A stretch of DNA of 64,000 nt from Komagataeibacter intermedius TF2 (lineage in GTDB: Bacteria > Pseudomonadota > Alphaproteobacteria > Acetobacterales > Acetobacteraceae): contig NZ_BANF01000075.1 of NCBI RefSeq assembly GCF_000964425.1, forward strand, positions 1 to 64,000. The letters are read 5' to 3'. The notes below the pieces were generated by a model. That model saw only the letters and a list, made by a program, of their open reading frames with translations. It did not search any database and was not told where the DNA came from. Positions 7,401 to 52,676 of this stretch are shown here, piece by piece. Each line of letters starts with the position of its first letter. Position 1 is the first letter of the stretch. The position numbers were made by a program, and so were the translations under genes.

Positions 7401-7470
7401 GTAAAAGTTTTCCGGTACCGCCTTTTTCCAAAAAGGCGGTGTTTTCCGAAGCGTTTTGAACGATTTTTAA
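7401..7470 (+). repeat. three-way-junction intergenic repeat, copy A
   Basis: Contains a perfect 11-bp hairpin (ACCGCCTTTTT/AAAAAGGCGGT, 7417-7440) flanked by GTAAAAGTTTTCCGG and GTTTTCCGAAGCG. Compared with other copies the outer arm pair G-C is changed to A-T on both sides (compensatory). Lies after rlmB. The right part is degraded. Confidence 0.8.
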
Positions 7471-7507
7471 CGCATTCCGCCAGCCGGACGGATCATGAAA
7501 AACTATT

Positions 7508-7521
7508 TATGTTATAACATA
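7508..7521. promoter_or_regulatory. perfect palindrome TATGTTATAACATA upstream of the FUSC gene
   Basis: A 14-bp perfect palindrome 49 bp before the GTG start of the exporter, in an AT-rich promoter-like stretch. It looks like an operator for a dimeric repressor (TetR/MarR/GntR type). No such regulator is next to it. Confidence 0.45.
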
Positions 7522-7569
7522 TAGATTTATCCTGTCATTCTTGCCATTCGGGGCAAATGACACGGCTGC

Positions 7570-9801
7570 GTGATACAGATCGCCCCGGTGGCGACAGACC
7601 GATGGCCCGCTGCCTGCGTGGTTAGCGTCACGGGTGGCTGGCTGCGCCGTTTCCGGTGGCTGTATGCCCCGCGGGCGGCGGATTTCGGGTTTGCGCTCCG
7701 CACGACCATTGCCGCCCTTCTGGCGCTGGTCATTGCCCTGTGGATGGAAATGGACGACCCGCAATGGGCGGCCATGACCACATGGATCGTAGCCCAGAAT
7801 TCGCGCGGGCAGAGCATGTCCAAGGCGCGGTGGCGGCTGCTGGGCACGGTCTGCGGCGCGGTGGCGGGCGTGGCCCTGATTGCGGCCATGCCCCAGTCAT
7901 CATGGCTGTTCTTTCCGGTGCTGGCGGTCTGGGTGGGAATATGCTGCGGGTTTGCGACTTTCCTGCGCAATTTCCATTCCTATGCGCTGGTGCTCATGGC
8001 GTTCACCAGCGGCCTGATCGCCCTGAACGCAGCCAATGATCCGCGCGATGTGTTTGCCATCGCCCTGTCCCGGTCCACCTACATCTTTCTGGGCATTCTG
8101 TGTGAAAGCGGGCTGGCGTCGGTCTTCGCGCCCAACCTGGCCGATGTCGCGCACAGGGAGATCACGCGCCGGGTTGCGGCAACCGTGGGGCAGGCGGCGC
8201 AGGCCCTGACGGGCATGATGGCGGGCCATGACGCGGGGTTCCTGCGGTCGCGCACGCTGCTGGGGTCCGTGTTTTCCATTTCGGACCAGATCGAGTTCAG
8301 TGAAGTGGAAATGCAGCACCGAACCCATGCCGGCGACCATGCGCGCGCGGCCCTGGCAGCGGTGGCGGTGGTGATGTCGCGCGGGCTGGGGCTGGCCGCG
8401 CGCATACGCGAGGCAGGCGCCGTGCCCCCGGCCTTTACCAATCCGCTGACCATGGCAAAGGCGCTGTTTTCCGACATGCAGGCGCAGATGGCCGGCCCCG
8501 ACCCCGTTGCCGCCGTGCCCGGCCTGCGCGCGCGCATCCGCATGCTGGGGGCGGAATGCCGGCAGCAGCTGGTCAATGACATCATTGCCGTCAGCGGGCC
8601 GGCGCCCATGGATGCCGCGGGGTCCCGGACGCATCTGGACGGGTACATCCTCAATGCCTCGCTTGGTGTGCTGCTGGTCCGGCTGGATGCGGCGCTGGTC
8701 CATCTGGCGGCGACACAGGCGGCCCCGGCGCATGACCATTTCCATTTTTCCACCCCGCCATGGCGGGACCGGACGGATGCCTGGCATAATGGTGTCCGCT
8801 CCGCCGGGGCCGTCCTTATGGGCGGACTGGTGTGGGAAGTGACGGGCTGGCCCGACGGGGCGACCTTCGCCATGTTCGTCGTGGTGACATGCAGCCGGTT
8901 CGCCGCCCATGAAAACCCGGTGCAGGACAGCCTTGGCTTCCTGCGCGGGGCGGTCTGGGCGGTGGTGGTGGCGGCGCTCCTGACGTTTGTCGTGCTGCCG
9001 CGGCAGGCGGTGTGGGAAACGTTGGTCGCGTCGCTGTTCGTGCCCATGATGGTGGGCGGTCTTGCGCTGCGTGACGCCCGTACGGTGGGGACGGCGGCGC
9101 CCTATAACAATTTCCTGCCGTTCATGGTTTACCCCGGCAACCAGTCGCGGCTGGATGAACTGACCTTTTTCAATACCAACAGTGCGGTCGTGCTGGGGAT
9201 ATGGTGCAGCGTGCTGGTGTTCCGGCTGGTGCTGCCATTCGATCAGGATGCGGAACGCTGGCGCATGCGCCGCCAGATGGTGGGCGACCTGCGGCGTATC
9301 GCGCGCGCCGCCACCATTCCCGATACCGGGGCATGGGTGAACACGCTGACCGCCCGGTTCGCACGTCTGGTCCGGCATTCCGCCACCATGTCCGATGCCC
9401 AGACCAACGCCTATCTGGACGGGGTGCTGGCGGCCATGACCGTGGGGCTGAACCTGATCCGGCTGCGGCGCATGCTGGACCGTGGCGGCCTCCCGCCCGA
9501 TGCGCGGCAGGCCGTGGAACGGACGGTCGCGGGGTTCGCCGCATGGCGGGGCCAGCCGCCTGTTGCTCTGGCCCACAAGGCGGCGGAGGCGCTGGCCTGC
9601 GTGCGGGCGCGGGTGGCGGGGGAGGGGAACCTGTCGCGGCGCCTCGATCTGGGGTGGAGTGCCGCCTATCTGGAAATACTGGTGCGCGAACTTGTGGCGC
9701 ATGCCCGGTTTTTCGATATTACCCACCGTTTCCATGTCCCGCCCGATTCGCGATCCATCAGGCCGGGCATCCCTGCCGCAACATCAAGGAGCCGCCCATG
9801 A
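7570..9801 (+). CDS. FUSC-family inner-membrane exporter (AaeB/fusaric-acid resistance type)
   Basis: 743 residues with the FUSC layout: a first membrane block (about 35-170), a soluble region, a second membrane block (about 410-560) with WPDGATFAMFVVVTCSRFA, and a soluble C-terminal domain. Members export aromatic acids and related toxic compounds, usually with a HlyD-type adaptor and outer-membrane channel; neither is adjacent here, unlike the second FUSC gene at 47.8 kb. The start is GTG at 7570; no ATG is in frame nearby. The stop overlaps the RidA start (ATGA), so the two are translationally coupled. A palindromic operator candidate lies upstream. The substrate is unknown. Confidence 0.88.
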   Translation: MIQIAPVATDRWPAACVVSVTGGWLRRFRWLYAPRAADFGFALRTTIAALLALVIALWMEMDDPQWAAMTTWIVAQNSRGQSMSKARWRLLGTVCGAVAGVALIAAMPQSSWLFFPVLAVWVGICCGFATFLRNFHSYALVLMAFTSGLIALNAANDPRDVFAIALSRSTYIFLGILCESGLASVFAPNLADVAHREITRRVAATVGQAAQALTGMMAGHDAGFLRSRTLLGSVFSISDQIEFSEVEMQHRTHAGDHARAALAAVAVVMSRGLGLAARIREAGAVPPAFTNPLTMAKALFSDMQAQMAGPDPVAAVPGLRARIRMLGAECRQQLVNDIIAVSGPAPMDAAGSRTHLDGYILNASLGVLLVRLDAALVHLAATQAAPAHDHFHFSTPPWRDRTDAWHNGVRSAGAVLMGGLVWEVTGWPDGATFAMFVVVTCSRFAAHENPVQDSLGFLRGAVWAVVVAALLTFVVLPRQAVWETLVASLFVPMMVGGLALRDARTVGTAAPYNNFLPFMVYPGNQSRLDELTFFNTNSAVVLGIWCSVLVFRLVLPFDQDAERWRMRRQMVGDLRRIARAATIPDTGAWVNTLTARFARLVRHSATMSDAQTNAYLDGVLAAMTVGLNLIRLRRMLDRGGLPPDARQAVERTVAGFAAWRGQPPVALAHKAAEALACVRARVAGEGNLSRRLDLGWSAAYLEILVRELVAHARFFDITHRFHVPPDSRSIRPGIPAATSRSRP

Positions 9802-10148
9802 CCATCACACGCCTGCAACCTGAAGACCGGCTGACCGGCGCCGTCGTGCATGGACATACAGTCTATCTGGCCGGACAGGTGACTGATGACCCAAACCTTG
9901 ATGCCGAAGGCCAGACGGCGGATATCCTGCGCCAGATCGATGCCCTGCTGGCGGAAGCAGGGACCAGCAGCGCACGCCTGCTGTCGGTACAGATTTTCCT
10001 GAGCGACATGAACGATATGGCTGCGATGAACCGTGCATGGGACGCCTGGCTGGACCCGACCGCCAAACCTGCCCGCGCCACGGTTGAGGCCCGTCTGGCC
10101 GATCCGCGCTGGAAGGTCGAAATCACCGGAATTGCAGCCCTGCCCTGA
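9798..10148 (+). CDS. RidA/YjgF-family protein
   Basis: 116-residue protein of the Rid superfamily, which includes deaminases that remove reactive enamine/imine intermediates. Seen: VYLAGQVTDDP near the N-terminus, QTADILRQIDALLAEAG, the SVQIFLSDMNDM strand-loop, and PARATVEARL near the C-terminus, with the Arg that usually binds the substrate carboxylate. AAGGA lies 7 nt before the ATG. Its start overlaps the exporter stop by 4 nt, suggesting that the two proteins deal with the same toxic metabolite (inference). It differs from canonical RidA at several positions, so it is more likely a Rid paralogue than the housekeeping enzyme. Confidence 0.88.
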   Translation: MTITRLQPEDRLTGAVVHGHTVYLAGQVTDDPNLDAEGQTADILRQIDALLAEAGTSSARLLSVQIFLSDMNDMAAMNRAWDAWLDPTAKPARATVEARLADPRWKVEITGIAALP

Positions 10149-10257
10149 TCCACAGGCGGCCCTGAAGGCCGGTTTTCATGCAACCGTGGGGTGGGCGGGC
10201 TGTTCAGATTCGTGAATGCGGTCCCATGGATCCGCCCATGATACGGAGCATCCCGCC

Positions 10258-11259
10258 ATGCCAGATGACACCAGCCATTCCTCATCCCGCCGCCAGATCC
10301 TGACGGGTGCTGCGGCAGCCGGTCTTGTTACCGCTGCTGCCGGCCGGTCCCATGCCGCGGAAATGGCGGCCCCCACGCCTGCGCTGGTGGACCCGGAAAA
10401 CGCCTATCCCCGGCCGCCCTTTCCCCAGCAGTCCCAGCCATGGCCCGGCCTTGCGGGCAAGATGACGCCCCGGCCCGACCATGGGGAAACCAGCTATCGT
10501 GGGTCCGGCAGGCTGGCGGGGCGCAAGGCGCTGATTACGGGTGGGGATTCGGGCATTGGCCGGGCTGCCGCCATTGCCTATGCGCGTGAAGGGGCGGATG
10601 TGGCGATTGCCTACCTGCCACAGGAAGAACCGGATGCGCGTGAGGTCATTGCCCTGATCCGCGCAGCCGGGCGCAAGGCCGTGGCCCTGCCCGGTGACCT
10701 GCGGGACCGCAAATACTGCGACAGCGTGGTGAAACGCGCGCATCAGGAACTTGGCGGACTGGATATCCTGGTCAGCAATGCCGGTCGCCAGCACCATCAG
10801 GACACTATCCTCGATATCAGTGACGAACAGTTTGATGAAACGTTCCGCACCAATATCTACGCGCTGTTTTATCTGGGCAAGGCGGCCATCCCGCTTATGC
10901 CACGCGGGGGCGCGATCATCGCCACGGCGTCGGTCAATGCGTTCAGCCCGTCCGAAATCCTGCTGGATTATTCCGCGACCAAGGGGGCGATCGTCGCCTT
11001 CGTCAAGTCACTGGCCAAGCAGATGGTCCACCGTGGCATCCGCGTCAATGCCGTCGCCCCCGGCCCGTTCTGGACCGCGTTGCAGGTCAGTGGTGGCCAG
11101 ACGGAGGAAAACATCCACAATTTTGGTGGCGAGACCCCGATGGGCCGCGCGGGCCAGCCTGCGGAACTGGCGCCTGTCTATGTCCTGCTGGCATCGTCGG
11201 AGGCCAGTTACATTACCGGTCAGGTCTATGGCGCGGCTGGCGGGACGGGTGTGGGCTAG
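10258..11259 (+). CDS. Tat-exported short-chain dehydrogenase/reductase (YghA-like)
   Basis: 333 residues. A Tat signal (SRRQIL at 10-15, then an Ala-rich core ending SHAAE) precedes a full SDR domain. Seen: cofactor loop TGGDSGIG (94-101), SNAG (173-176), catalytic Ser225, Tyr238 and Lys242 in YSATKGA, and a PG-motif VAPGPFW. The linker with [11 protein letters not shown] resembles E. coli YghA, an NADPH aldehyde reductase, but the Tat signal implies folding with cofactor and export. ACGGAG precedes the ATG at 10258, favoured over an upstream start because it places the twin Arg near the N-terminus. The periplasmic substrate is unknown. Confidence 0.88.
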
Positions 11260-11300
11260 GGTCGCGCAATGTCCTTGCGGTGCGGCTGCGGCAATGGCAC

Positions 11301-11423
11301 ATGGCATGGATGCGTATTGTCATGTCCTGCCTGCTGATGCTGCTGGGGGTCGCGGCGTGTTATTATGCCTTTGGCATGATTACGGATGCCGGGCGTTTCA
11401 TATCCGATTCCCATCCCTGGTGA
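11301..11423 (+). CDS. possible 40-residue membrane peptide
   Basis: A short frame with one strongly hydrophobic segment (about residues 5-25) followed by a polar tail ending DSHPW. It starts 41 nt after the SDR stop. No strong ribosome site is visible and an internal ATG at 11310 is also possible. Not recognised. It could be a chance frame. Confidence 0.3.
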   Translation: MAWMRIVMSCLLMLLGVAACYYAFGMITDAGRFISDSHPW

Positions 11424-11601
11424 TCCCCTGTCCTCCCGTCGCCTGACGGGGGCGTGCGGCTGTCCGGTAGGGAACACGGGCCGGTCATGTTTCATGTTGC
11501 GTACCGTTATGAATCATGCACCCGATCGTGCATTTCCGGCGTTGTACATGACTTCAACACTGACATGTTTCCCGCAGGCATGACCTGTGGTGGAGGTTGC
11601 C

Positions 11602-12039
11602 ATGATCCGTTTTCCCGCCCTGCCCGCCCTTGTCGCCGCCAGTATCGTGGTGGCCTCGCCCGCCCTTGCCGCCACCGTGCGGCTGGATGGTCATTTCACC
11701 CCTGAACATGGCACGACCAGCCAGCCCGATGGCACCGTTCAGGCCACGCTGAACACGCGCACGAACCTTGTGAAATATACCCTGACATGGACCGGGCTGA
11801 GCGGACCTGTGGTGGCCGCCCATTTCCACGGCCCCGCGCCAGCAGGGGAGGAAGCGGGCGTGCTGGTGCCCATTCCCGGCCCCTACAAATCCGGCCAGCA
11901 TGGGTCCGTCCTGCTGTCATCTGAACAGGCGGAGGCCCTTCAGAACGGTCAGGTCTATGTCAACCTGCACACCGCCGCCCAGCCCAATGGCGAGGCCCGC
12001 GCCCAGCTTGCGCCGGTCCGTCCCGGTGAAACGAAATAA
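11602..12039 (+). CDS. secreted CHRD-domain protein
   Basis: 145 residues. A signal peptide ends ALAA, then one CHRD domain: VRLDGHFTPEHGT at its start, GTVQATLN, HFHGPAPAGEEAGV (the usual H-x-H-G motif) and VYVNLHTAAQPNGEARAQL at the end. CHRD domains occur in periplasmic and extracellular bacterial proteins of unknown role. The start at 11602 has GGAGG 10 nt upstream; an in-frame GTG 15 nt earlier is less likely. Single gene between the SDR and the DUF1134-like protein. Confidence 0.85.
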   Translation: MIRFPALPALVAASIVVASPALAATVRLDGHFTPEHGTTSQPDGTVQATLNTRTNLVKYTLTWTGLSGPVVAAHFHGPAPAGEEAGVLVPIPGPYKSGQHGSVLLSSEQAEALQNGQVYVNLHTAAQPNGEARAQLAPVRPGETK

Positions 12040-12183
12040 ACTGCAAGTCATTGGGATCGTGTCCATGATATAGTTTGCATGGCTGCTATTTGTGCGGCAC
12101 AGTGCAGTGGATGACATGGAAATCATGTCGGTCATGTAAGGACGCGGGGTGACTGTGCCCGCCAGAAGTCATGGAGTCCGCTT

Positions 12184-12687
12184 TTGCGCCTAGTATCTCT
12201 GGCCGCTGTCGCGGCGGCCGTGTCCCTGTCCGGTCTCGCCCCTTTCACCTGTGCCCATGCTGCGGATGCGCTGGGGCAGAATACGGCAACGATTACCTTT
12301 ACCCTGTCGGCGGCCGATCTGGGGGCAGGAATGTCGTGGGGGAAAGGTGTTCTGACGTTCGAGGGACATGACTACCCCTTCCGCATCCGCGGCGGTTCGG
12401 GGGCGGCCATCGGCTTTTCCAGAACCCATGCCACTGGCACCGTCTATAACCTGTACCGCGTTGCGGATATCGAGGGTACATACTGGTCCGTCCAGGGCGA
12501 GGCGACGGTCGGCGCGGGCAAGGGTGCCGCCGTCATGGAAAATAACAACGGTATCCATATCAAGTTCTCGTCACGCAGCACGGGCGCGCGGCTGGCGTTT
12601 TCGGTCGAACGTCTGACCATAAGCCTGACCCCGGAAGAAAAGGCCGGCCTTGCAACCGCGAGTGCCACCCCTGCTTCCCATGAATAG
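12184..12687 (+). CDS. secreted DUF1134-like protein
   Basis: 167 residues starting at TTG, with GGAG 8 nt upstream. A signal peptide ends AHAA. The body has the glycine-rich lipid-binding-like pattern of the DUF1134/YSC84 group: SWGKGVLTFEGHDYPFRIRG, VYNLYRVADIEGTYW, and a late NNNGIHIKF strand. DUF1134 proteins in Alphaproteobacteria act at the cell envelope. The family call is from memory of this pattern and needs a profile search. The C-terminal tail (ATASATPASHE) is low complexity. Confidence 0.7.
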   Translation: MRLVSLAAVAAAVSLSGLAPFTCAHAADALGQNTATITFTLSAADLGAGMSWGKGVLTFEGHDYPFRIRGGSGAAIGFSRTHATGTVYNLYRVADIEGTYWSVQGEATVGAGKGAAVMENNNGIHIKFSSRSTGARLAFSVERLTISLTPEEKAGLATASATPASHE

Positions 12688-12748
12688 GCAGTCCGCCCCC
12701 TGATCGTGCATGGTAGGCTCCATCACCTGAACGGATGGAGCCACCAGC

Positions 12749-13618: not shown

Positions 13619-13804
13619 TCCATGCCCCTTCCGGCAGGTGTCTTTTCCATGCAACACCTGCCGGAATAAGCTTTGCGAAAAAAGCATGGATGGCCCCGGA
13701 AATCTGCGAAAATATCGTATTTTCAACCCCCCGGTTGCGTCGTAGCGTGCGCGCAGGAGCAGCATGCGGCAGTCTCGCCCGCTAGGCTCACGGGAAACGC
13801 CTTG

Positions 13805-14032
13805 ATGCGTAGTTTTTCTCCTGTCCCCGCCGTGGGATTTTCCCCTTCTTCCAATCCCCTTCCGATCCGCACACTGCGCCAGCGCGTTGTGGGCTGGGTT
13901 GGTGCGGCCTACCGCAAACAGGGGATGATGCTGCTGGCGACACTGCCCAGTATCGCCGTGCCATCAGGCTGCCATGCGGGGATGGAGGGATCGCCCTCCC
14001 TGCTGGCGCTGCGGGGCTGGGACCGGTCCTGA
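13805..14032 (+). CDS. uncertain 75-residue open frame
   Basis: Begins with MRSFSPVP, has a basic TLRQRVVGWVGAAYRKQG stretch and ends LRGWDRS. No domain is recognised and GGGAAACGCC before the ATG is a weak ribosome site. An antisense frame overlaps it. It lies in a 550-nt gap (13619-14172) that otherwise shows nothing identifiable. It may be non-coding. Confidence 0.25.
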   Translation: MRSFSPVPAVGFSPSSNPLPIRTLRQRVVGWVGAAYRKQGMMLLATLPSIAVPSGCHAGMEGSPSLLALRGWDRS

Positions 14033-15483: not shown

Positions 15484-15566
15484 TAAAAGTCTTTGGTGAA
15501 GCTTTTTTTCAAACAGCTTCAGGAAACGCCGCCTTTTTGAAAAAAGGCGACACCCAAAAACTTTTA
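15484..15566 (-). repeat. three-way-junction intergenic repeat, copy B (inverted)
   Basis: Full-length copy in reverse orientation. Outer arms TAAAAGTCTTTGG and CCAAAAACTTTTA, inner hairpins GAAGCTTTT...AGCTTC and GCCGCCTTTTT...AAAAGGCGAC. Lies 28 nt after bluB. Confidence 0.85.
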
Positions 15567-19541: not shown

Positions 19542-19575
19542 TAACAGTTTTCGGGGGCCGCCCTTTTTCAAAAAT
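19542..19575 (+). repeat. three-way-junction intergenic repeat, copy C (truncated)
   Basis: Only the left arm and half of the first hairpin remain: GTAACAGTTTTCGGGGGCCGCC, CCTTTTTCAAAAA. It is followed by an unrelated terminator. Between the symporter and convergent icd. Confidence 0.6.
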
Positions 19576-19598
19576 GTCTTGGGTTTTCAGGATGTGGA

Positions 19599-21082: not shown

Positions 21083-22732
21083 ATGATCGCCCGTCCCCCC
21101 CCGGATACGGCCTGCTGGCGTGCACGCTGCCAGCATATCTGGCCCGATATACTGTTTGGCCTTATGGCCGCCCTTGCGCTGCTGCCCGCCTGCACGGCGT
21201 TGCAGGGGGTGGTGCGGTCGGTGGCGCTGTGGGCGGTGATCGCGCTGCTGGTCAACAGCAGGCGGGTTCTGCTGGCGCTGCTGCTGCCAGTGGTCGTGCT
21301 GATGCCGGCTGCGCTGTATTACATCGGCATAGGTGGCGCGCCGCCCGGCTATCCGCTGTGGCTGATCCTGTTTTACTGCTCGTTTCCCGTTATGGTCGGG
21401 TACGTCTGGCCTGTCCTGCCCTATCTGGTGGCATGGACGTTGCTGTGGGTGGGCCTGACCGGGGTGTACCTGTCGCGGCCACGTGGCGCGGTGGTGGGCT
21501 GGCGGGGCCGTACGCGCCTGGCCTGCGTGGCGGTGCTGCTGGGGTGGATCATTGTTCCCACCGTGCAGTTGTGGCGGCACCTGCCCCCCACGCGGGGCGG
21601 AACCGAAAACCCGCTGGTGCCCATCCATTCCCGCTTTGACCGGGCATGGCCGTGGAGCATGGCGACCGGCTATGTCGCCGCCCGGCGTGAAACCCGGCGC
21701 GTGACCGACATGGCACGACGGATCAGCCATGAACCGATCCATTTCGATCCGCTGCCGCCCACCACGGCACAGGTGATCGTACTGGTGATCGGGGAAAGCG
21801 CGCGGCGTGACCACCATCACATCTATGGCTACGGCCCGCCCACCACGCCGGAAATGGAACAGGTGCCGGGACTTGTACACTTTGATGACATGGTGACCCC
21901 CTTCGATTATACGGTCGGCGCGGTGCCGGTCATCCTGTCGGGATATGACCGGCTGCGGCCCGGTGCGGCGCCGGGGCATGACCTGGTGTCAGTGTTCAAC
22001 GCGGCGGGATTTGATACGTGGTGGATCAGCAACCACCCCCGGCTTGGCCCGTATGACAGCGTGATTGGCGCCTATTCGGAACAGGCCCGCCATATTGCCT
22101 ACACTACCGTGCATGACGGGGTGATGAGCAGCCCGGTGCTGGATCAGCGCATGCTGCCGGTCGTGGACCGGGCGATAGCGGATGCGCACGGCCCCGTCTT
22201 TATCGTGTTGCACCTGTTTGGCAGCCATGAAAACGCGGCTGACCGGTATCCCCGTGGTTTTGCCAGTCTTGGCACGCCCTATGACAACAGCATTGCCTAT
22301 ACCGATCACATGCTGGCCCATGTACGCGCCGCGCTGGCGGCGCATGGGGGAGAATCCGCGCTGTTTTACGTATCCGACCATGGGGTGCGGGTTACGGAAT
22401 GCACGGGCGGGATTCCCGCGCATGGGGATGTGCGCGCGGCGTATGAAATACCATTCTATCTGTGGACATCCGACGCATGGCAGGCAGCCCACCCGCAGGC
22501 GGCACAGGCCGCGCGTGATAATGTGCATGTCCCGCTGACGCTTGCGGCCCTGCCGCCAAGCGTGCTGGACGCGGCGGGGTTGCATTACAGTGCGGCGGAT
22601 GCAGCCCTGTCGGTGCTGTCAGCCCACCCCGTTCACGTGCCGCGCATCGTGCATGGGGACAGCGGCACCAATCAGAACGTCGATTATGACCACAGCCATG
22701 ATGATGGCAGGTGCCATATCGTACGGGACTGA
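21083..22732 (+). CDS. lipid A phosphoethanolamine transferase-like protein (EptA family)
   Basis: Inner-membrane protein with a periplasmic sulfatase-fold domain; the family adds phosphoethanolamine to lipid A or other surface glycans and lowers binding of cationic peptides. 549 residues: four or five membrane helices (about 22-165), then the catalytic domain with LVIGESARRDH (metal-binding Glu238), DYTVGAVPVILSG (nucleophile Thr277), HLFGSHENAADRYP and YVSDHGVRV (metal-binding Asp-His). The stabilising cysteine pairs of Neisseria EptA are absent, so this is a divergent member and its acceptor is not certain. ATG at 21083. Repeat copy D follows. Confidence 0.87.
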   Translation: MIARPPPDTACWRARCQHIWPDILFGLMAALALLPACTALQGVVRSVALWAVIALLVNSRRVLLALLLPVVVLMPAALYYIGIGGAPPGYPLWLILFYCSFPVMVGYVWPVLPYLVAWTLLWVGLTGVYLSRPRGAVVGWRGRTRLACVAVLLGWIIVPTVQLWRHLPPTRGGTENPLVPIHSRFDRAWPWSMATGYVAARRETRRVTDMARRISHEPIHFDPLPPTTAQVIVLVIGESARRDHHHIYGYGPPTTPEMEQVPGLVHFDDMVTPFDYTVGAVPVILSGYDRLRPGAAPGHDLVSVFNAAGFDTWWISNHPRLGPYDSVIGAYSEQARHIAYTTVHDGVMSSPVLDQRMLPVVDRAIADAHGPVFIVLHLFGSHENAADRYPRGFASLGTPYDNSIAYTDHMLAHVRAALAAHGGESALFYVSDHGVRVTECTGGIPAHGDVRAAYEIPFYLWTSDAWQAAHPQAAQAARDNVHVPLTLAALPPSVLDAAGLHYSAADAALSVLSAHPVHVPRIVHGDSGTNQNVDYDHSHDDGRCHIVRD

Positions 22733-22739
22733 AGACAGG

Positions 22740-22786
22740 GGGCCCGGACGCCGCCTTTTTAAAAAAGGCGGCGCCCAGGAACGTTC
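22740..22786 (+). repeat. three-way-junction intergenic repeat, copy D (first hairpin only)
   Basis: Perfect stem GCCGCCTTTTT-A-AAAAAGGCGGC (22750-22772) with short flanks; the second hairpin is missing. It lies between the convergent eptA-like gene and the gene at 22824. Confidence 0.8.
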
Positions 22787-22823
22787 ATTCCTGTTTATCA
22801 GGCGTCCCGGGTTGGAAGAGCCC

Positions 22824-34543: not shown

Positions 34544-34594
34544 TAAAAAAGAAGTTCTTGGGCGCCGCCTTTTTTCAAAAAGGCGGCGTTTCTG
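34544..34594 (+). repeat. three-way-junction intergenic repeat, copy E (first hairpin only)
   Basis: Stem CGCCGCCTTTTT/AAAAAGGCGGCG (34563-34588) with left arm AAAAAAGAAGTTCTTGGG. The second hairpin is missing. Between a plus-strand secreted-protein gene and convergent rmlA. Confidence 0.8.
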
Positions 34595-34617
34595 GTTGTC
34601 CGATCGTTTTTATCCTT

Positions 34618-39046: not shown

Positions 39047-39122
39047 TAAAAGTTTATGGGTGCCGCCTTTTTTCAAAAAGGCGGCGTTTTTCGAAACTTT
39101 TGAAAAAATCTTCACCAAAAAC
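39047..39122 (+). repeat. three-way-junction intergenic repeat, copy F (full)
   Basis: Reference-like copy. Left arm TAAAAGTTTATGGGT, hairpin GCCGCCTTTTTT-C-AAAAAGGCGGC (39062-39085), second hairpin CGAAACTTTTGAAAAAATCTTC, right arm ACCAAAAACG. Between convergent gntP and uvrA2. Confidence 0.88.
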
Positions 39123-39134
39123 GTCTGTCTGTTT

Positions 39135-44753: not shown

Positions 44754-45293
44754 ATGACCGAACCGACCTGCCTGCCCGATCTGGATCATGAATATTTCCT
44801 GCGGCAGTCCTTTGCCGTAGCGGAGCGCGCGCGTCAGGATGGCGACCATCCCTTCGGCTGCGTGCTGGTGGATGCACAGGGCAATGTGGTGATGGAACAG
44901 GGGAACGGATACACGGCGGAAGGCGGCGACATGACCGCCCATGCAGAACGCCTGCTGGCCACGCGGGCATCAAAAACCTATGCGCCGGACATGCTGGCGT
45001 CATGCACCATGTACACTTCCGCCGAACCGTGTGCGATGTGTGCGGGTGCGGTGTACTGGAGTGGGATCGGCCGCGTGGTCTATGGACAGAGCGAGGCCAG
45101 CCTGAAGGAGATAACGGGCAACCATCCCGAAAACCCGACCCTGGACCTGCCCTGTCGCACGGTGTTCGCAGCGGGGCAGCGACCGGTGGCCGTTATCGGT
45201 CCCCTGCTGGAAGATGAAGCTGCTGAACTGCAGCGTACGTTCTGGCGGGAAAAGAACGGGTCAGTCGTTGAGGGACCGGGTTCAAAGGAATAA
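44754..45293 (+). CDS. nucleoside/guanine deaminase (CDA fold)
   Basis: 179 residues. Zinc-dependent deaminase with HAE (Zn His, catalytic Glu) in MTAHAERLL and PCAMC (Zn cysteines) in SAEPCAMCAGAVYW; HPFGCVLVD near the start completes the pocket. The tail DLPCRTVFAAGQRPVAVIGPLLEDEA, EELQRTFW resembles guanine-deaminase-type members rather than tRNA-specific TadA, though this is not decisive. ATG 44754 follows GATATGGA; an in-frame TTG five codons upstream is the alternative. The stop codon is inside repeat copy G. Confidence 0.9.
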   Translation: MTEPTCLPDLDHEYFLRQSFAVAERARQDGDHPFGCVLVDAQGNVVMEQGNGYTAEGGDMTAHAERLLATRASKTYAPDMLASCTMYTSAEPCAMCAGAVYWSGIGRVVYGQSEASLKEITGNHPENPTLDLPCRTVFAAGQRPVAVIGPLLEDEAAELQRTFWREKNGSVVEGPGSKE

Positions 45294-45369
45294 AAGTTTC
45301 TGGGTGCCGCCCTTTTTCAAAAAGACGGCATCGTTCCAAAGCTCTTGAAAACAGCTTCATCATGAACTG
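45291..45369 (+). repeat. three-way-junction intergenic repeat, copy G
   Basis: The repeat begins with TAA, which is the stop codon of the deaminase gene. First hairpin TGCCGCCCTTTTT/AAAAAGACGGCA has two mismatches; second hairpin GCTCTTGAAAACAGC; degraded right end. Between convergent genes. Confidence 0.8.
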
Positions 45370-45393
45370 CTTATGATTTTCAGGCCTATGCTA

Positions 45394-46317: not shown

Positions 46318-46383
46318 GGGCAGTGCGATGCCTGCCATGACCGCGCGGGTAGCCGACAGGGCGACATATCAGAAAAAATTCAT

Positions 46384-46402
46384 ACGACTCTTAACGAGTC
46401 GT
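46384..46402. other. inverted repeat ACGACTC-TTAAC-GAGTCGT
   Basis: Perfect 7-bp arms and a 5-bp AT-rich centre in the gap behind the CsbD-like gene. It is next to a cluster of DnaA-box-like sequences. Could be a terminator-like stem or a protein-binding site. Confidence 0.4.
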
Positions 46403-46413
46403 GGAAAACACCC

Positions 46414-46488
46414 ACCTTATCCCCGGTTCCCAACGGTTCTATCCACAGGGTTGCCCGGATATTCGTCCCCTGAATCTGTGGATAAGGT
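46414..46488. other. cluster of DnaA-box-like sites inside an inverted repeat
   Basis: TTATCCCCG (46417-46425), CTATCCACA (46439-46447) and a perfect TGTGGATAA (46477-46485, reverse box) lie within 70 bp. The ends, ACCTTATCC and GGATAAGGT, form a 9-bp inverted repeat. No dnaA or other origin-associated gene is adjacent. Confidence 0.4.
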
Positions 46489-46506
46489 AAGGGCGGCACC
46501 AGAAAG

Positions 46507-46586
46507 AAGTGTTTGGTGAAGCTTTTCTCAAAAAGCTTCAGGGAACGCCGCCTTTTTGAAAAAAGGCGACACCCAAAAAACTTTTA
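46507..46586 (-). repeat. three-way-junction intergenic repeat, copy H (full, inverted)
   Basis: Left AAGTGTTTGGTGAAGC, hairpin GAAGCTTTT-CTC-AAAAAGCTTC, hairpin GCCGCCTTTTT...AAAAGGCGAC, right CACCCAAAAAACTTTTAT. Between the CsbD-like gene and the convergent HlyD-like gene. Confidence 0.88.
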
Positions 46587-46604
46587 TTCTTTTTGAACAG
46601 TTTT

Positions 46605-47555
46605 TTAACGATGTCCCGCAAGGTGCTGCATGTCATCGCCTACATGTCGCAATGCATCACGCACTGACATATGGCGGCGGTTGCCAGCTTCCGATACTAC
46701 GGTCACCGTTGCCGTCATGCCTGCGGCCAGTACAAGGTCGGGCGGAATGCTGTCGATTTTGACACGCACCGGGATGCGCTGCGCCAGCCGGACCCATGTA
46801 TAGACCGGGTCCACTGCCGGCAGGCCCTGTATGGAGGTCGCGGCGTTGTTGCTGGCGATACCGCGCGTGATGCTTTCCACATGGCCGAACAGGGGTTCAT
46901 GGAAGCCCATAAGGTCCAGCCGCACCGGCTCACCCACCTTGATGGAATGGATTTTCGTTTCCTCGAAATACCCGTCCACCCAGTATGAATCCGCATCGAT
47001 GATCTGGATGTTCACCTGTCCTGCATTGGCGTAATCGCCCGCGCGCATGGTCAGGTTCGTGACGTACCCGTTGATCGAACTGCGGACTTCGGTGCGTTCC
47101 AGGTTGATGCGTGCCTGCTTCAGGTCCGCAAGGGCGGCTGCGTACTGGGCTTCGGCCTGCTGGGCCACGGCCTCGAACTGCTGCTTTTCCTCGCCCGATA
47201 CGGCAACGCCCGAAATCTTCTGGCGGCGTTCGTACTGCGATGTCTTGAACTCCAGATCCGCGCGGCGTTCATTGACGGCGGCATCGGCGATATCCAGCTT
47301 CACCCGAAAATCGAACGGGTCGATGACATACAGCACGTCGCCCTTGTGCACGAACTGGTTGTCATGCACGCGCACTTCATTGATCTGGCCGGAAATGCGC
47401 GGTGCGATATTGGCAACCTGTGCACGGACCTGGCCGTTCCGTGTCCAGGGGGAGGCCGTGTAGTAATCCCACAGCACGATGGCCACGATGGCCGCGACCA
47501 GCAGGATGACAGCGGTAATCGCCACACGCACAAGGCGGTTTGCATATGCGAACAC
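46605..47555 (-). CDS. aaeA: HlyD-type efflux adaptor (AaeA-like)
   Basis: Periplasmic membrane-fusion protein linking the FUSC pump to an outer-membrane channel. 316 residues: N-terminal membrane anchor (about 10-29), barrel-sandwich halves VRAQVANIAPRISGQINEV and NGYVTNLTMRAGDYANAG around a coiled coil (about 85-150, AAVNERRADLEFKTSQYERR region), then DADSYWVDGYFEETKI and a PVRVKIDS beta domain. Last gene of a three-gene operon (FUSC, DUF1656, this), separated by 12 nt from DUF1656. The gene symbol follows E. coli AaeA, which exports hydroxybenzoic acids; the substrate here is inferred. Confidence 0.92.
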   Translation of the reverse strand: MFAYANRLVRVAITAVILLVAAIVAIVLWDYYTASPWTRNGQVRAQVANIAPRISGQINEVRVHDNQFVHKGDVLYVIDPFDFRVKLDIADAAVNERRADLEFKTSQYERRQKISGVAVSGEEKQQFEAVAQQAEAQYAAALADLKQARINLERTEVRSSINGYVTNLTMRAGDYANAGQVNIQIIDADSYWVDGYFEETKIHSIKVGEPVRLDLMGFHEPLFGHVESITRGIASNNAATSIQGLPAVDPVYTWVRLAQRIPVRVKIDSIPPDLVLAAGMTATVTVVSEAGNRRHMSVRDALRHVGDDMQHLAGHR

Positions 47556-47567
47556 GTCAGGATTCTT

Positions 47568-47762
47568 TCACAGGATCAGGGTATACAGGCCAACAAGGCA
47601 GATCAGCAGGCCGAACTGCGCCAGCGGCGGGTTCCAGACAAACCGCCACAGGTTGAGCCATGACAGCATGATGCGCAGCACCAGCAGCGTGCACAGCGCC
47701 AGCCCGAGGTTCATGACAAAGGCCGAGATCAGCACGCCTTCCAGATCGACAACCTGTCGCAT
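47568..47762 (-). CDS. aaeX: DUF1656 small membrane protein (AaeX-like)
   Basis: 64 residues with two membrane helices: AFVMNLGLALCTLLVLRIML and FGLLICLVGLYTLIL, separated by SWLNLWRFVWNPPLAQ, a typical DUF1656 linker with the W-x-P motif. Its ATG overlaps the FUSC stop (TGATG), so translation is coupled. DUF1656 proteins nearly always accompany FUSC pumps and HlyD adaptors; their exact role is not known. Confidence 0.92.
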   Translation of the reverse strand: MRQVVDLEGVLISAFVMNLGLALCTLLVLRIMLSWLNLWRFVWNPPLAQFGLLICLVGLYTLIL

Positions 47763-49825
47763 CAGCCGGCCTTTTCCACTTTGATGATGCCGTAATGCCG
47801 CAACCGGGGCGCTGCCGTCTGCCATGCCCGCAGGACGGCGTCCAGTCCGGCCAGCAGGTTGATGGCCGCGACCTGCGTCTTGGGTGGCAGTTGGGCCTGC
47901 GGGGCGGGGATTGCCGCGATGGCGTCGCGCATGCGCTGTTCCACGTCCCATGGTGCATGCAGCGACAGTTCGCGTTGCGCCAGTTCGGCTGCGGGGCGCA
48001 GCAGAGCGATCGCCTGTGCCTGATGGGCATAGGTCCGTGCCCGCGCCAGTGCGCCGTCCAGTTCGGCAAATGTCATGAAACTTTCCATCTGTCGTGCGCT
48101 GCTGGAATTGCCAGGCAGGCGGTCGGTCCAGAACTGCATCTGGGCCAGACGGTCATATGTACGGGTCAGGCGGGTCGGGCCATCAGTTTCGCCATGTCCG
48201 GTCATCTGGCGTTCCAGCGCGCGGACGACGGTGGATGCCATCCAGAACCGTTGCCGCCGGGGTGATGGCGGAAACAGCAGCACAAGGACGATGAACGCCA
48301 GCAGGGCCGCCAGCAGGTAAAAGATGTTGCGGTTGAGGAATTCCGTGGGGTTATAGCTCTGGTGGTTATCCAGACCCAGTATGGCGAAGAAGAATACGCC
48401 ATAATTGAACCCGATGGCCGCCGTTGACGGGCGCATAAGCAGAAGACAGGCCAGGAAGGTCTGCGGCAGCAGCGTCAGCGCCAGAAAGGGCATGTCCGCC
48501 CCGTGCAGCAGCACGAAGAAGTTCAGCAATGCGGCCGCCAGCACGCTGCATGGCAGGCCGATGATCGCCCCCATGCCGAAACGCGCCGTATCCACATTGG
48601 TCGCGGCAAGGGTCAGGGTCAGCGCGGTCTGGGCCAGTGCGACGGTCGCCCCCGGCAGGCCGGTGATCACGCAGACCCCGGCCGCGAACGAAAAGCCGAC
48701 CAGAACCCGCAGCGCCCCGATCAGGGCCAGCAGGTAATTGGGCTGGACCGCGATATTGACGGTCCTGCTGTGGCTGGCGCTGCCGGTGCCTTCGGTCAGT
48801 ACTTCCTGTCCGGCATGCATGCGGGTGCGCGCGGTCAGCATGCGGGCGGCGCGTTCAATGGCAAAGGCTTCGTCCGCATTGGGCACGTGTTCGGGCAGGG
48901 TCGTGCGCACGGCATCCAGTATATGCGTGGTGAAACCGGCCTGATCGGTGCGCAGGTCGGTCTGCCGCGCGACGCGGGCAATGGATTCTTCCACCACCGG
49001 GTCGATATTGCCATGACCGGTATGACGGCCCAGCCCGCGCGCGCAGTCCAGAATGGTCAGCATGGACACCATGGCCAGGCGCGCCCCGTTGGCGCGTGCG
49101 CCGCCCCGTTCCAGTTCCGTGCGGGCATAGGAAAGTGGCGTAGTCAGCGCCAGTATGCGCGCGCCCAGCCGGATGTCAGTCTGTGCGCCACGGTCGTACA
49201 TGTGCTGCAGGGCGGCGCGTGCGGTCTCGCTAAGCGGACGGATCAGCTGCTTCAGTCCATTGGCCAGCCCCCGCCATGCCTCGGGCGAGCCGGACAGGAT
49301 ATTGACCACCGCCACCGCAAAGACCCCGAGCGTAATGGCCGAAGCGCGGGATACCGCGATGTTGAAAACGTTCTGTGGCGTATCAATGCAGTTTACGGCC
49401 ACAAGGGCGACCGTATAGCCCGACAGCAGGGCGGCATAGGACCGGAAATCGCGCTCCAGCGACCCCACGAAGGCGCAGGCCGCAAGCCACAGTGCGACAC
49501 CCCCCAGAAAGGGGCCGCGCTGCTGGTTCCATACCGCCACCAGCACAATGGACACGCCCATGCCCACCATGGTGCCCAGCAGCCGGTAAAATGCCTTGGA
49601 CAGCGCCTGCCCGCGCAGGGGCTGCGCCAGGATCATGACCGTAACGCCCACCAGCAGGGGATTGTCCAGTTGCAGCCAGAAGGCCGTGGTCAGTCCGAGT
49701 ACCAGCGAGCACCATGTACGCAGGCTGAACCCCACCCAGCCCGCAGGCAGGCGGTCAGTCCAGGGCTGGAAGATGCGAATGATGCCGTGAATACGCCGCG
49801 CGCTTGTTGCCTGTAGGTCTGGCAT
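47762..49825 (-). CDS. aaeB: FUSC-family efflux pump (AaeB-like)
   Basis: 687 residues. Two membrane blocks (about 30-180 and 370-520), each with the FUSC helix pattern; RTWCSLVLGLTTAFWLQLDNPLLVG opens the first and PRRQRFWMASTVVRALE closes the second. Between them is a helical soluble domain with a Arg/Ala-rich segment, and a final soluble domain of ~150 residues. First gene of the aaeB-aaeX-aaeA operon, divergent from nothing close by. E. coli AaeAB exports p-hydroxybenzoate; related pumps handle fusaric acid. No LysR regulator (AaeR) is next to it. Confidence 0.92.
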   Translation of the reverse strand: MPDLQATSARRIHGIIRIFQPWTDRLPAGWVGFSLRTWCSLVLGLTTAFWLQLDNPLLVGVTVMILAQPLRGQALSKAFYRLLGTMVGMGVSIVLVAVWNQQRGPFLGGVALWLAACAFVGSLERDFRSYAALLSGYTVALVAVNCIDTPQNVFNIAVSRASAITLGVFAVAVVNILSGSPEAWRGLANGLKQLIRPLSETARAALQHMYDRGAQTDIRLGARILALTTPLSYARTELERGGARANGARLAMVSMLTILDCARGLGRHTGHGNIDPVVEESIARVARQTDLRTDQAGFTTHILDAVRTTLPEHVPNADEAFAIERAARMLTARTRMHAGQEVLTEGTGSASHSRTVNIAVQPNYLLALIGALRVLVGFSFAAGVCVITGLPGATVALAQTALTLTLAATNVDTARFGMGAIIGLPCSVLAAALLNFFVLLHGADMPFLALTLLPQTFLACLLLMRPSTAAIGFNYGVFFFAILGLDNHQSYNPTEFLNRNIFYLLAALLAFIVLVLLFPPSPRRQRFWMASTVVRALERQMTGHGETDGPTRLTRTYDRLAQMQFWTDRLPGNSSSARQMESFMTFAELDGALARARTYAHQAQAIALLRPAAELAQRELSLHAPWDVEQRMRDAIAAIPAPQAQLPPKTQVAAINLLAGLDAVLRAWQTAAPRLRHYGIIKVEKAG

Positions 49826-49926
49826 GGCCTCCCTGACCGTTCAGTGGCCTCATGGCGCTTGATACAATGGAAATAGCCGGGAATTCATAACAAAGGATGT
49901 ACAGGCACAAGGTGCATGGCTGGTAT

Positions 49927-51324
49927 TCACATAGGAGATATCACCCGGTGCCGGACCACTTCGCCCACAATGATCAGCGCGGGGCTGCCCACGTCGGCCT
50001 CGGCCGCCTGCCGCGCAAGCTCCCCCAGCGTGCCGGTCAGCACGCGCTGGTCCGCGCGCGTGCCGCGTTCGACAATGGCGGCAGGCCAGTCAGCGGGCAC
50101 GCCGTGGTCCATAAGCTGTGTACACAGGGCGGGCAGGGCGGATACCCCCATATAGATCACCACCGTCTGTCCCGGTCGCGCCATGCTGTCCCAGGGCAGG
50201 TGCAGCGTGCCATCAGCGCGGGCATGGCCGGTTACAAACATGCAGGCCTGCGCGCAGTCACGGTGGGTCAGGGGGATGCCGGCATAGGCGGCGCAGCCAT
50301 TGGCCGCCGTGATGCCCGGCACGACCTGAAACGGAATGGCGGAGTCCAGCAGGGCTTCGATTTCCTCGCCCCCGCGTCCAAAGACGAACGGGTCGCCCCC
50401 CTTCAGCCGCAGCACGCGCTGTCCCGCCCGTGCGCGGCGGACCAGTTCGGCGTTTATTTCTTCCTGCGGCATGGTGTGTCTGTTGCGGCGTTTGCCCACG
50501 AATACCAGTTCCGCATCGCGTCGCACCCGGTCCAGCAGGGCAGGGGAGAGAAGCTGGTCATACAGCACGCAGTCGGCATTCTGCATGAGGTGCAGCGCGC
50601 GCAGCGTCAGCAGGTCCGGATCACCCGGCCCCGCGCCGACCAGCCACACTTCGCCCCGCGTGCTGGTGGAGGCAATGATGTCGTCCAGTATGGCGCGCGC
50701 ACGTTCGTTTTCGCCCCGCCGGGCTGCCTGCGCGCCCGCCCCGTCAAGGAAGGTTTCCCACACCTGCCTGCGTCGCGAAATGTCAGGACACGCAGCCCCC
50801 ACATGCTCGCGCTGCTGCTGCATGAATACGGCAAGCTCCCCCGTGCCATCGGGTATGGTGCTTTCCACCTGTTCGCGCAGGCGGCGCGCCAGAACGGGGG
50901 CGGCCCCCCCGGTGGAAATGGCGATGCGGACCAGCCCGCGATGGATCTGGGCCGGGGTAATGAAGGTGGATGGCTGCGGGTCATCGACCGCGCAGACGGG
51001 AATGTTCATCTCCTGCGCCAGGGCCGCGACAGCGCGGTTGACAGTACGGTCATCGGTCGCGGCATAGACCAGGCGGCAACCGGGCATGGCGGCGCGCAGG
51101 GTGGCGGCATCGGCCGTGCTGGCCACATGGGTGATCGTGCCGTCTTCCTCCCATCGCTGCATTTCCGGATCAAGGCGCGCGGCAATGACCTCGACCTTCG
51201 CGCGGTGGGCCAGCAGCAGGCGGACCTTGTTGGCCGCGATCATGCCGCCGCCAATCACCAGCACCCGGACATTGTCCAGCCGCAGCGCGATGGGAAACCA
51301 TGCGGGTTCGGAAATATGGGTCAT
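49927..51324 (-). CDS. cysG: siroheme synthase (trifunctional CysG)
   Basis: Makes siroheme from uroporphyrinogen III for sulfite reduction: SAM methyltransferase, precorrin-2 dehydrogenase and ferrochelatase in one chain. 465 residues, matching CysG. N-terminal NAD-binding LVIGGGMIAANKVRLLL (22-38), ATDDRTVN, dimerisation region, then the methylase VWLVGAGPGDPDLLTLRALH (about 224), RLKGGDPFVFGRGGEEI, PGITAANGCAAYAGIPLTHR. All landmarks are present. Uroporphyrinogen III is also the branch point to cobalamin, which fits bluB and the riboswitch. Followed on the same strand by nothing within 100 nt; ATG at 51324. Confidence 0.96.
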   Translation of the reverse strand: MTHISEPAWFPIALRLDNVRVLVIGGGMIAANKVRLLLAHRAKVEVIAARLDPEMQRWEEDGTITHVASTADAATLRAAMPGCRLVYAATDDRTVNRAVAALAQEMNIPVCAVDDPQPSTFITPAQIHRGLVRIAISTGGAAPVLARRLREQVESTIPDGTGELAVFMQQQREHVGAACPDISRRRQVWETFLDGAGAQAARRGENERARAILDDIIASTSTRGEVWLVGAGPGDPDLLTLRALHLMQNADCVLYDQLLSPALLDRVRRDAELVFVGKRRNRHTMPQEEINAELVRRARAGQRVLRLKGGDPFVFGRGGEEIEALLDSAIPFQVVPGITAANGCAAYAGIPLTHRDCAQACMFVTGHARADGTLHLPWDSMARPGQTVVIYMGVSALPALCTQLMDHGVPADWPAAIVERGTRADQRVLTGTLGELARQAAEADVGSPALIIVGEVVRHRVISPM

Positions 51325-51411
51325 GCAGTCAAACAGCCGGTCGTGCCGGCATCCTGTGGCTGGGGAAGGGCGGGTCTGGATGGAAACGTGTGTAGCGGTG
51401 GTGTGGTGGCG

Positions 51412-51561
51412 TCAGTGGGAGGTGACGTTCTTCACCCCTTCGGCATAACCCCAGCGTGCCCATGTCGAACGGTCCTTGACCGATCCCGGCGTGTTGGTGG
51501 CGCATGCGGCCAGCGACAGCACGATGGCACAGATACCAAGAACGGGAAGAAAACGGGCCAA
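51412..51561 (-). CDS. small entericidin-like lipoprotein, TTG start
   Basis: 49 residues. TTG at 51561 follows AGGAGG by 6 nt, an ideal ribosome site, and begins the signal LARFLPVLGICAIVLSLAAC with lipobox SLAAC. The mature part is ~29 residues (ATNTPGSVKDRSTWARWGYAEGVKNVTSH). The size and layout resemble entericidin-type lipoproteins of unknown function, but the mature sequence does not match the classical Lys-rich ones. The longer frame upstream (from 51648) lacks a ribosome site. Just upstream of cysG on the same strand (87-nt gap). Confidence 0.68.
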   Translation of the reverse strand: MARFLPVLGICAIVLSLAACATNTPGSVKDRSTWARWGYAEGVKNVTSH

Positions 51562-51745
51562 AAAAACCTCCTGCACGACGCAATGGCCGACATAGCAGAA
51601 AAGCCATGCCTTCACCACGACCATATATGAATTGACGCGCGCCCTCACGCCCCATCGCGCATGTCATGGAAATGATGATATGCACCCTGCCTGAAACAGG
51701 CCGCTGGCGGAATGCCAGAGACAGACAGAGGTAAGGGCAGGCAGG

Positions 51746-52600
51746 ATGGAAACGATCAGCACCGTAGCCGGATTGCGCGCGCGTGTCAGGCAGTGGAAGC
51801 AGGCGGGCGCGCGTGTTGGCGTGGTGCCGACCATGGGCGCGCTGCATGACGGGCACCTGTCGCTGGTCCATGCGGCGCGGGCGCAGGCGGACCGGGTGAT
51901 TACCACGGTTTTTGTCAACCCGATCCAGTTTGACAATGCCGATGACCTGGCCACCTATCCGCGCACGCTGGAGGATGATGCACGCCTGCTGGCGGCGGCC
52001 GGGGTGGATATGCTGTACGCGCCCACCGTGTCACAGATGTACCCACCCGGTTTCGCCACCCGCATCAGCGTATCCGGCGTATCGGAAGGGCTGTGTGGAG
52101 GGGCCCGCCCGGGCCATTTCGATGGTGTGGCGACAGTGGTGTGCAAGCTGCTGATGCAGACGCTGGCGGACTGCGCTTTCTTTGGCGAGAAGGATTTCCA
52201 GCAGGTTCAGGTGGTCCGTCGCATGGTCACCGACCTTGACCTGCCGGTTGAGATCGTGACCTGTCCGACGCAGCGTGAGGCGGACGGCCTGGCCCTGTCA
52301 TCGCGCAACCGGCGTCTTGCGCCCCATCAGCGCCAGATTGCGGTTGCCCTGCCGCGTATCCTGCGGGTTTGCGCCGCCGATATTGCGGCGGGCGCGGATG
52401 TCCCTGCCGCATTGGCGCAGGCGGTAGTCCAGCTGGCGGATGCGGGTTTTGACCCGGTGGACTATGTGGAATTGCGGTCGGAACTGGACCTGCAACCACT
52501 TGCTGTTGTGAGCAGGGGCACGCCCGCGCGCCTGCTGGCGGCGGCATGGCTGGGTGATGTGCGGCTGATTGACGGCATGGCCGTGCCATTGCCGGAATAA
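51746..52600 (+). CDS. panC: pantothenate synthetase
   Basis: ATP-dependent ligase joining pantoate and beta-alanine in coenzyme A biosynthesis. 284 residues, nucleotidyltransferase fold. Seen: VVPTMGALHDGHLSLVHAARA (HxGH motif), VFVNPIQF, YPRTLEDDARLL, LCGGARPGHFDGVATVV, FGEKDFQQVQVVRRMV, LALSSRNRRL (KMSKS-equivalent) and DYVELR. All active-site motifs are intact. ATG at 51746. The stop codon TAA starts repeat copy I. Transcribed alone. Confidence 0.97.
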   Translation: METISTVAGLRARVRQWKQAGARVGVVPTMGALHDGHLSLVHAARAQADRVITTVFVNPIQFDNADDLATYPRTLEDDARLLAAAGVDMLYAPTVSQMYPPGFATRISVSGVSEGLCGGARPGHFDGVATVVCKLLMQTLADCAFFGEKDFQQVQVVRRMVTDLDLPVEIVTCPTQREADGLALSSRNRRLAPHQRQIAVALPRILRVCAADIAAGADVPAALAQAVVQLADAGFDPVDYVELRSELDLQPLAVVSRGTPARLLAAAWLGDVRLIDGMAVPLPE

Positions 52601-52676
52601 AGAAGTTTTTGGGGCAGCCTTTTTTCAAGAAGGCTGCATTCTTCGAAGCCTTTTGAAAAAAGCTTCACCAAAAAAT
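52598..52676 (+). repeat. three-way-junction intergenic repeat, copy I (full)
   Basis: Starts on the panC stop codon. First hairpin GCAGCCTTTTTT-C-AAGAAGGCTGC carries a compensatory change relative to GCCGCC/GGCGGC; second hairpin CGAAGCCTTTTGAAAAAAGCTTC; right arm ACCAAAAAAT. Between convergent panC and the Trm112 gene. Confidence 0.88.

Follow-up and report, generated by a model that had tools for sequence, protein, structure and literature searches.

The first 64,000 nucleotides of contig NZ_BANF01000075.1 of Komagataeibacter intermedius TF2 (called here the window) contain nine copies, A to I, of a short structured repeat situated at the ends of genes. The complete repeat is 82 bp long and is bounded by an outer inverted repeat of about GTTTTTGG/CCAAAAAC, with approximately 56 bp and two hairpins between the outer repeats. 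Judged from sequence comparison, the repeat is the core of an approximately 162-bp IS5-type non-autonomous transposon, a miniature inverted-repeat transposable element (MITE), and old cores have become inverted in place within the outer inverted repeat, leaving the flanks unmoved.

The repeat in the window and its relatives

A covariance model was built from 30 copies of the window's own genome and run across the window with its filters off. Copies B, F, G, H and I belong to the 30 model sequences and thus match by construction; A, C, D and E do not belong to them. Genes were called with a custom codon-usage script, not a standard annotator.

Five copies are full 82-bp cores. Copy B (15484-15566, minus strand, 91.7 bits) is reversed and has tandem genes on either side. 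Copy F (39047-39127, plus, 87.9 bits) lies between a GntP-family permease gene on the plus strand and a UvrA-like gene on the minus strand; its hairpin 1 (39061-39086, plus), read directly as TGCCGCC-T6-C-A5-GGCGGCG followed by a T run, is terminator-like on the plus strand. Copy G (45291-45372, plus, 62.9 bits) holds the stop codon of a deaminase-like gene (44754-45293), copy H (46504-46585, minus, 90.9 bits) is reversed, and copy I (52599-52680, plus, 81.9 bits) lies 3' of the pantoate-beta-alanine ligase gene, the stop codon of which is the TAA at 52598-52600. Copy A (7402-7478, plus, 48.7 bits) is weaker, having an intact hairpin 1 and a degraded second half. The other three are relics. 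Copy E (34549-34612, plus, 39.0 bits, mainly from hairpin 1) and copy D (22720-22787, minus, 27.0 bits on the minus strand and 26.6 on the plus) retain hairpin 1 only. Copy C (19542-19580, plus) scores 8.9 bits, which is not significant alone (E=8). The site orthologous to copy C carries a full-length copy in genome G007 (L343), and that orthologous to copy D carries full minus-orientation copies in G018, G015 and G011, showing that C and D are decayed members of the family. The scores of copy D itself leave its strand undecided; its orthologs are on the minus strand.

An earlier note on this DNA had described the nine copies as one family, and this proved right: the model recovers A, B and D to I in the window, and the relatives confirm C and D. 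The outer stem and both hairpins, said to be common to all nine, are present in B, F, G, H and I and roughly in A, and are missing from C, D and E. Seven copies (C to I) do lie between convergent genes by the custom calls, A and B being between tandem genes. All nine are downstream of a plus-strand gene, although "directly 3'" does not describe E and H, which are 115 and 186 nt from the called gene. The TAA stop codons of the genes ending at 45293 and 52600 are indeed inside the repeat, and the reported changes in the arms of hairpin 1 (ACCGCC/GGCGGT in A, GCAGCC/GGCTGC in I) are present. The note passed over the opposite orientation of B and H as well as the larger element, its targeting of stop codons and the inversions in place.

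The repeat family in vinegar and kombucha bacteria is real. The genome of the window has at least 132 matches at E ≤0.01 (150 of 1305 candidates were scored, and some matches are the two strands of one copy). The family is present in 19 of 19 searched genomes of the genus and in one of 21 genomes outside it (G022, with 12 weaker matches). An exact scan of named genomes for a 33-base pattern gave at least 120 stretches; the 80 listed include Komagataeibacter, Novacetimonas, Gluconacetobacter entanii, Acetobacter and Gluconobacter. All 16 Acetobacter and Gluconobacter loci examined, which were chosen because they contain a 33-base piece of the core, match the covariance model, 14 of them above 70 bits. 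On contig C1 of G018, 84 of the 149 listed copies are within 0.5 Mb of the contig start, the contig being taken as circular, compared with 50.5 expected, and the listed copies have a trough at 1.25-1.95 Mb; the contig start may not be the replication origin.

The copies are concentrated between convergent genes. Within 864 kb (stretches of the own genome and the window) there are 33 full hits of at least 45 bits, of which 22 lie in convergent gaps, nine in tandem gaps, one in a divergent gap and one at an edge; 50 of 96 hits entered this count, second-strand duplicates and hits below 25 bits having been removed by hand. Convergent gaps constitute 84 of the 456 gaps of at least 60 bp in the same DNA, in agreement with the enrichment at gene ends that had been proposed. 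In a second, larger set of 134 copies, some of them orthologous to one another, 95 are in convergent, 35 in tandem and four in divergent gaps. The background here comprises gaps of at least 60 bp: 242 between convergent, 684 between tandem and 348 between divergent genes. The divergent gaps total 109,306 bases and the convergent gaps 48,722. Of the 95 copies between convergent genes, 67 are closer to the stop codon of the gene on their own strand and 26 to that of the other gene. Where the repeat is absent, the gene end at the site of copy I has an unrelated GC-rich hairpin (L144), a gap of 18 nt (L145) or 20 nt (L134), or other sequence of 63 nt (L146).

The larger element and its insertion into stop codons

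Some copies are situated within a larger unit that has the 15-bp terminal repeat GAGACTGTTTGAAAA at both ends. An exact search placed this 15-mer in 18 of the genus's 19 genomes; a reversed control matched none of them. In the DNA examined, 39 pairings of ends enclose a core, mostly at a distance of 160-163 bp; in two cases, L196 and L235, an element already counted is paired a second time. The flanking 3 bp are identical in 20 of the 39 pairings, and in 18 of these they are TNA, a target duplication that defines the IS5 family. The element, about 162 bp long and lacking a transposase gene, has the length of a MITE. The origin from a MITE suggested earlier is thereby borne out by the full element, its terminal repeats, the TNA duplications and the unfilled sites described below; every MITE feature tested was found, the identification of a parent excepted.

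Among the own-genome copies of at least 50 bits, a recognisable terminal repeat was found in none of 43 on either side. Traces of arm A remain in seven and of arm B in four, and two exact GAGACTGTTTGAAAA 15-mers occur elsewhere in the genome. Since these copies lack the terminal repeats and still have the core, the repeats of the window are best read as cores left behind after loss of the ends.

Orthologous gene ends were aligned among the 19 genomes, giving 1158 ortholog rows for 170 query copies. For full MITEs, a comparison of the kind that the earlier note had called for reveals the insertion sites and target duplications at two sites, L365 and L387. At the L365 site, G006 has TGA-MITE-TGA, and the same gene end has a single TGA in G004, G008, G015, G003, G018 and G016. 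Four of these six unfilled genomes run on into ACGCCAGAA, the sequence that also follows the second TGA of G006. Further downstream of the TGA lies an older hairpin or core, in G008 together with a second hairpin and an outer end. At the L387 site, G015 has TAA-MITE-TAA, the same element is found in G008, and G004 has a single TAA without the MITE. The MITE is also absent from G006 and G018, where the gene end has diverged; in G016 most of the B arm has been lost and the core is intact. The ortholog rows gave no clean unfilled site for copies reduced to the core: of the 1158 rows, the 14 that passed the filter (flanks ≥87%, gap ≤60) are mostly partial deletions or shifted alignments. Three sites that lack the core in a comparison of the own genome with G007 lack flanking sequence as well, which pointed to a larger element. 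A mariner-type TA target, suggested by the TA at both ends of the core, was dropped because of the larger terminal inverted repeats (TIRs) and the TNA duplications.

The MITE can thus insert exactly into a TGA or TAA stop codon and leave the gene complete. The TNA triplets are TAA, TGA, TTA and TCA, two stop codons and their reverse complements, so that every TNA target reads as a stop on one strand. The duplicated TAA or TGA restores the stop codon, and the gene is therefore spared. The distance from stop codon to TIR is exactly zero in 12 of 53 cases; in three of the 12 (L235, L384 and L398) one end of the pairing is poor or unusual. Stop codons are in contact with the element at 8 of 27 sites, compared with 3.8 expected from any TNA in the gap (simulated P 0.012; 27 of 32 elements scored). 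This expectation is slightly low, as the script removed the stop codon along with the duplicate at some sites, and both this and the three doubtful pairings weaken the evidence for contact with stop codons.

The GAGACTGTTTGAAAA terminal repeats and the TNA duplications fit the IS5 family, in which insertion sequences (IS) of the IS1031 type and their MITEs likewise have terminal repeats starting with GAG and TNA flanks; it counts against the assignment that it is drawn entirely from these two features. Relatives were sought at 30 DDE_Tnp_1 loci in five of the genus's genomes. No parent with identical ends was found among them. The closest is an 884-bp IS with the TIR GAGCCTGTTTGGAAA, which differs from that of the MITE at two positions on either end (13 of 15 letters agree); this IS has the flanks TTA and TGA and an intact 274-residue IS5-type transposase (NF033580, E 5e-70). 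An 897-bp IS differs at three TIR positions on either end and is flanked by TAA left and right. A 930-bp element at L432 (80-1009), with the TIR GAGACTGATCCGAAAG and TAA on both sides, is probably IS1031-like and resembles in length IS1031A, which is 930 bp long according to Table 5 of PMC9818992. No likeness of these three IS to the MITE was seen past the terminal repeats.

An IS5_3-type element in L362 (G009), having a perfect left TIR, was initially held to be the parent of the MITE. It was rejected, as the ends of related elements in the genus are GGGCCTGTTGGGAATT-like repeats and the L362 element itself is nested in a MITE. IS5-type IS with GGGCCTGTTGGGAATT-like ends are inserted in the repeat in at least four of 12 copies examined (L412, L416, L418 and L429). 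The IS ends near locus position 1501 and is flanked by the repeat both left and right, which gives the repeat the look of a favoured target.

Inversion of the core in place

Orthologous cores frequently differ in orientation. Among the 614 ortholog rows oriented on both sides, 176 have opposite orientations, although these rows are ordered pairs and not independent. When grouped by site, which leaves out copies without an ortholog, 140 copies form 30 groups, ten of which hold both orientations. A single-gene tree, some nodes of which are weak, requires at least 14 changes of orientation. Two examples are in the window. Copy I has the plus orientation in the window genome and G011 and the minus orientation in G007, G010 and G005; copy H is minus in the window genome, G008 and G018 and plus in G003, G006, G015 and G016. 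Both orientations also occur across the genus at the site of copy F.

In 39 opposite pairs with flanks at least 85% identical, the mean alignment score is 36.8 when the sequences are compared directly. It rises to 52.3 with the element inverted together with its flanks, to 59.0 with inversion at the ends of the model and to 63.6 with whichever inner inversion aligns best, the last value being optimised over the breakpoints and to that extent favourable to the inversion. The possible breakpoints are 10-12 bp into the element in 24 of 39 pairs on the left and 25 of 39 on the right, and thus reach into the outer stem. The flanks and outer ends are unmoved in the opposite orthologs. Locus-specific similarity after inversion (mean percentile 0.65, n=44) is about the same as in pairs of like orientation (0.70, n=144), and replacement of the core by another copy is therefore not supported. 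The inversion of orthologous cores in place is new.

Several counts weigh against frequent inversion, or against a simple mechanism for it. The full MITEs show none: of 39 pairings, 33 are canonical and six unclear. Of 146 matches in G007, 30 loci were compared with the own genome; 11 had no ortholog in the sequence at hand, seven faced a decayed or absent copy, and only one of the 12 oriented pairs was opposite. Two K. saccharivorans strains agree at both sites compared, which are on plasmids. Flips of the hairpin loops are rare among 211 copies, with 95 canonical and five flipped for hairpin 1 (one of the five being copy I, a doubtful match) and 73 canonical and two flipped for hairpin 2, the remaining copies being unclassified; such rarity is not predicted by a purely generic palindrome mechanism. 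The 33 uninverted MITEs and the few flips in close pairs point to rare events that accumulate after insertion.

Termination, rival explanations and significance

The fold of the repeat had been thought to be under selection. The arms do covary, modestly: among 30 copies, two-sided changes occur in 9 of 28 base pairs (shuffled mean 4.8, reached in 8 of 500 shuffles) and in 15 cells (shuffled mean 7.2, reached in none of 500). Sliding the structure by three columns also gives nine pairs and 13 cells, but then 51% of the cells are paired compared with 87%. The three-way junction itself is seldom predicted. It appears in single copies only in the centroid of H, RNAalifold retains five pairs of the 30-copy alignment, all around hairpin 1, and the fold statistics of some copies are weak (z -0.75 for G and -1.58 for E); with the modest size of the covariation, these results support selection on the fold in part and also weigh against a two-way terminator. 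Templated correction of palindromes could also produce covariation of the arms.

The core is predicted to be a terminator in both directions, less firmly for the minus strand; the bidirectional role proposed in the earlier note is likewise a prediction. On a simple score combining hairpin energy and T tail, the plus strand passes in 22 of 45 cases and the minus strand in 17 of 45, compared with 6 of 45 for random intergenic sequence. Hairpin energy has a median of -15.4 kcal/mol on the plus strand, -9.1 on the minus strand and -13.1 in the random pieces; the median T tails are 3.1, 3.5 and 2.4, respectively. The minus strand, the median hairpin of which is weaker than random, thus passes by virtue of its T-rich tail. 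In its own orientation the core presents hairpin 1 and then a T-rich stretch; in the opposite orientation the whole junction comes first and then CTTTTATTATTTTTTATC-like sequence contributed by arm A or what remains of it. Full cores are absent from the output of a terminator scan, possibly because the stem absorbs the T run; this and the weak minus-strand hairpins speak against the prediction. So does the orientation in tandem gaps, which is the same as that of the genes in 22 cases and opposite in 13. Such a weak bias is not expected of a strong one-way terminator, and a strict one-way terminator in tandem gaps is not supported.

The explanation favoured as a whole, with a probability of about 0.72, is that the core of the MITE is kept at gene ends, probably as a terminator, and is rarely inverted in place. 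The MITE inserts at TNA, on occasion exactly at a stop codon, where the duplicated TAA or TGA leaves the gene complete. In the own-genome copies examined the terminal repeats have been lost and the structured core persists just 3' of stop codons, mostly between convergent genes; it would be retained for its role in terminating transcription or forming an mRNA 3' end. In one direction, hairpin 1 and the T-rich stretch would terminate transcription; in the other, the outer stem or the whole junction would do so with its T-rich stretch. Inversion would be a rare event of the replication type, by palindrome or template switch, and not a programmed switch. Both orientations would be tolerated between convergent genes because the core would terminate both ways.

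A site-specific recombinase acting on the outer repeats, which would flip the terminator between convergent genes within populations as in an inverton, would account for inversion between outer inverted repeats with intact flanks and for outer inversions seeming commoner than loop flips. Against it, all 33 classifiable MITEs are uninverted, close pairs seldom differ (one of 12 against G007, none of two in K. saccharivorans) and the repeats are only some 56 bp apart; we consider it very improbable. Equally little credence is given to independent insertions in opposite orientations at the same gene ends. Stop-codon targeting does make one site a possible repeated target, but the interior is reversed between flanks and outer ends that remain in alignment, and the similarity specific to each locus is retained.

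The copies might instead be passive debris, harmless insertions that survived at gene ends with a self-correcting palindrome as core and no role in termination. Insertion into stop codons is directly seen, though at only about twice the random TNA expectation, templated correction could preserve the arms, the orientation in tandem gaps is weakly biased, and at the L365 site an older hairpin or core was already downstream of the TGA. However, in the same copies the core can still be recognised after the arms and terminal repeats have gone, and the divergent gaps, which are non-coding too and larger in total, hold 4 of 134 copies compared with 95 in convergent gaps. Debris appears unlikely, though less so than the two preceding alternatives. 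Beyond the favoured explanation of a core kept probably as a terminator, it is conceivable, at somewhat less than even odds, that a transposon lineage with target triplets identical to TAA, TGA and their complements gave many acetic acid bacteria a large share of the terminators at their gene ends, and that shedding of the ends after insertion and flipping of a near-symmetric terminator re-aim termination between convergent genes.

No published description of the repeat was found in literature searches, which included acetic acid bacteria and in which most subscription papers were out of reach. An Rfam search of the window gave no match to the repeat above the gathering score; its matches were a cobalamin riboswitch (458-684, minus) and two tRNAs (6342-6424, minus; 54888-54959, plus). 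Like the RUP, Correia/NEMIS and ERIC repeats, which are short, structured, intergenic and present in high copy number, the repeat described here has all four properties; unlike them, it targets TNA, can hit stop codons and survives mostly as a core. It shares with REP/BIME, which are structured repeats at gene 3' ends, both structure and location, but differs in having a full element with TIRs and target duplications.

Small inversions in chloroplast genomes also sit at gene 3' ends. At chloroplast stem-loops, according to PMC6824564, a segment flip-flops in place between short inverted repeats and does so recurrently on the tree, which the core inversions resemble in all three respects. In one chloroplast example from that source the flipping piece is a loop of 5 bases at one locus, whereas here about 56 bp with two hairpins are inverted in a dispersed bacterial repeat. 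The likeness to invertons is that a segment is inverted between inverted repeats, in the present case between species. Unlike invertons and phase-variable switches, the cores give no sign of rapid switching and are located at gene 3' ends; no recombinase is linked to them, none having been searched for.

A mobile element can thus reach gene ends harmlessly, as the stop codon is both the target and the duplicate. The family provides many sites on which the inversion in place of a palindromic element can be positioned on a tree. In Komagataeibacter, which is used for cellulose, many gene ends share a similar repeat, and this matters for assembly and engineering. In this bacterial group the element has perhaps been co-opted to signal 3' ends.

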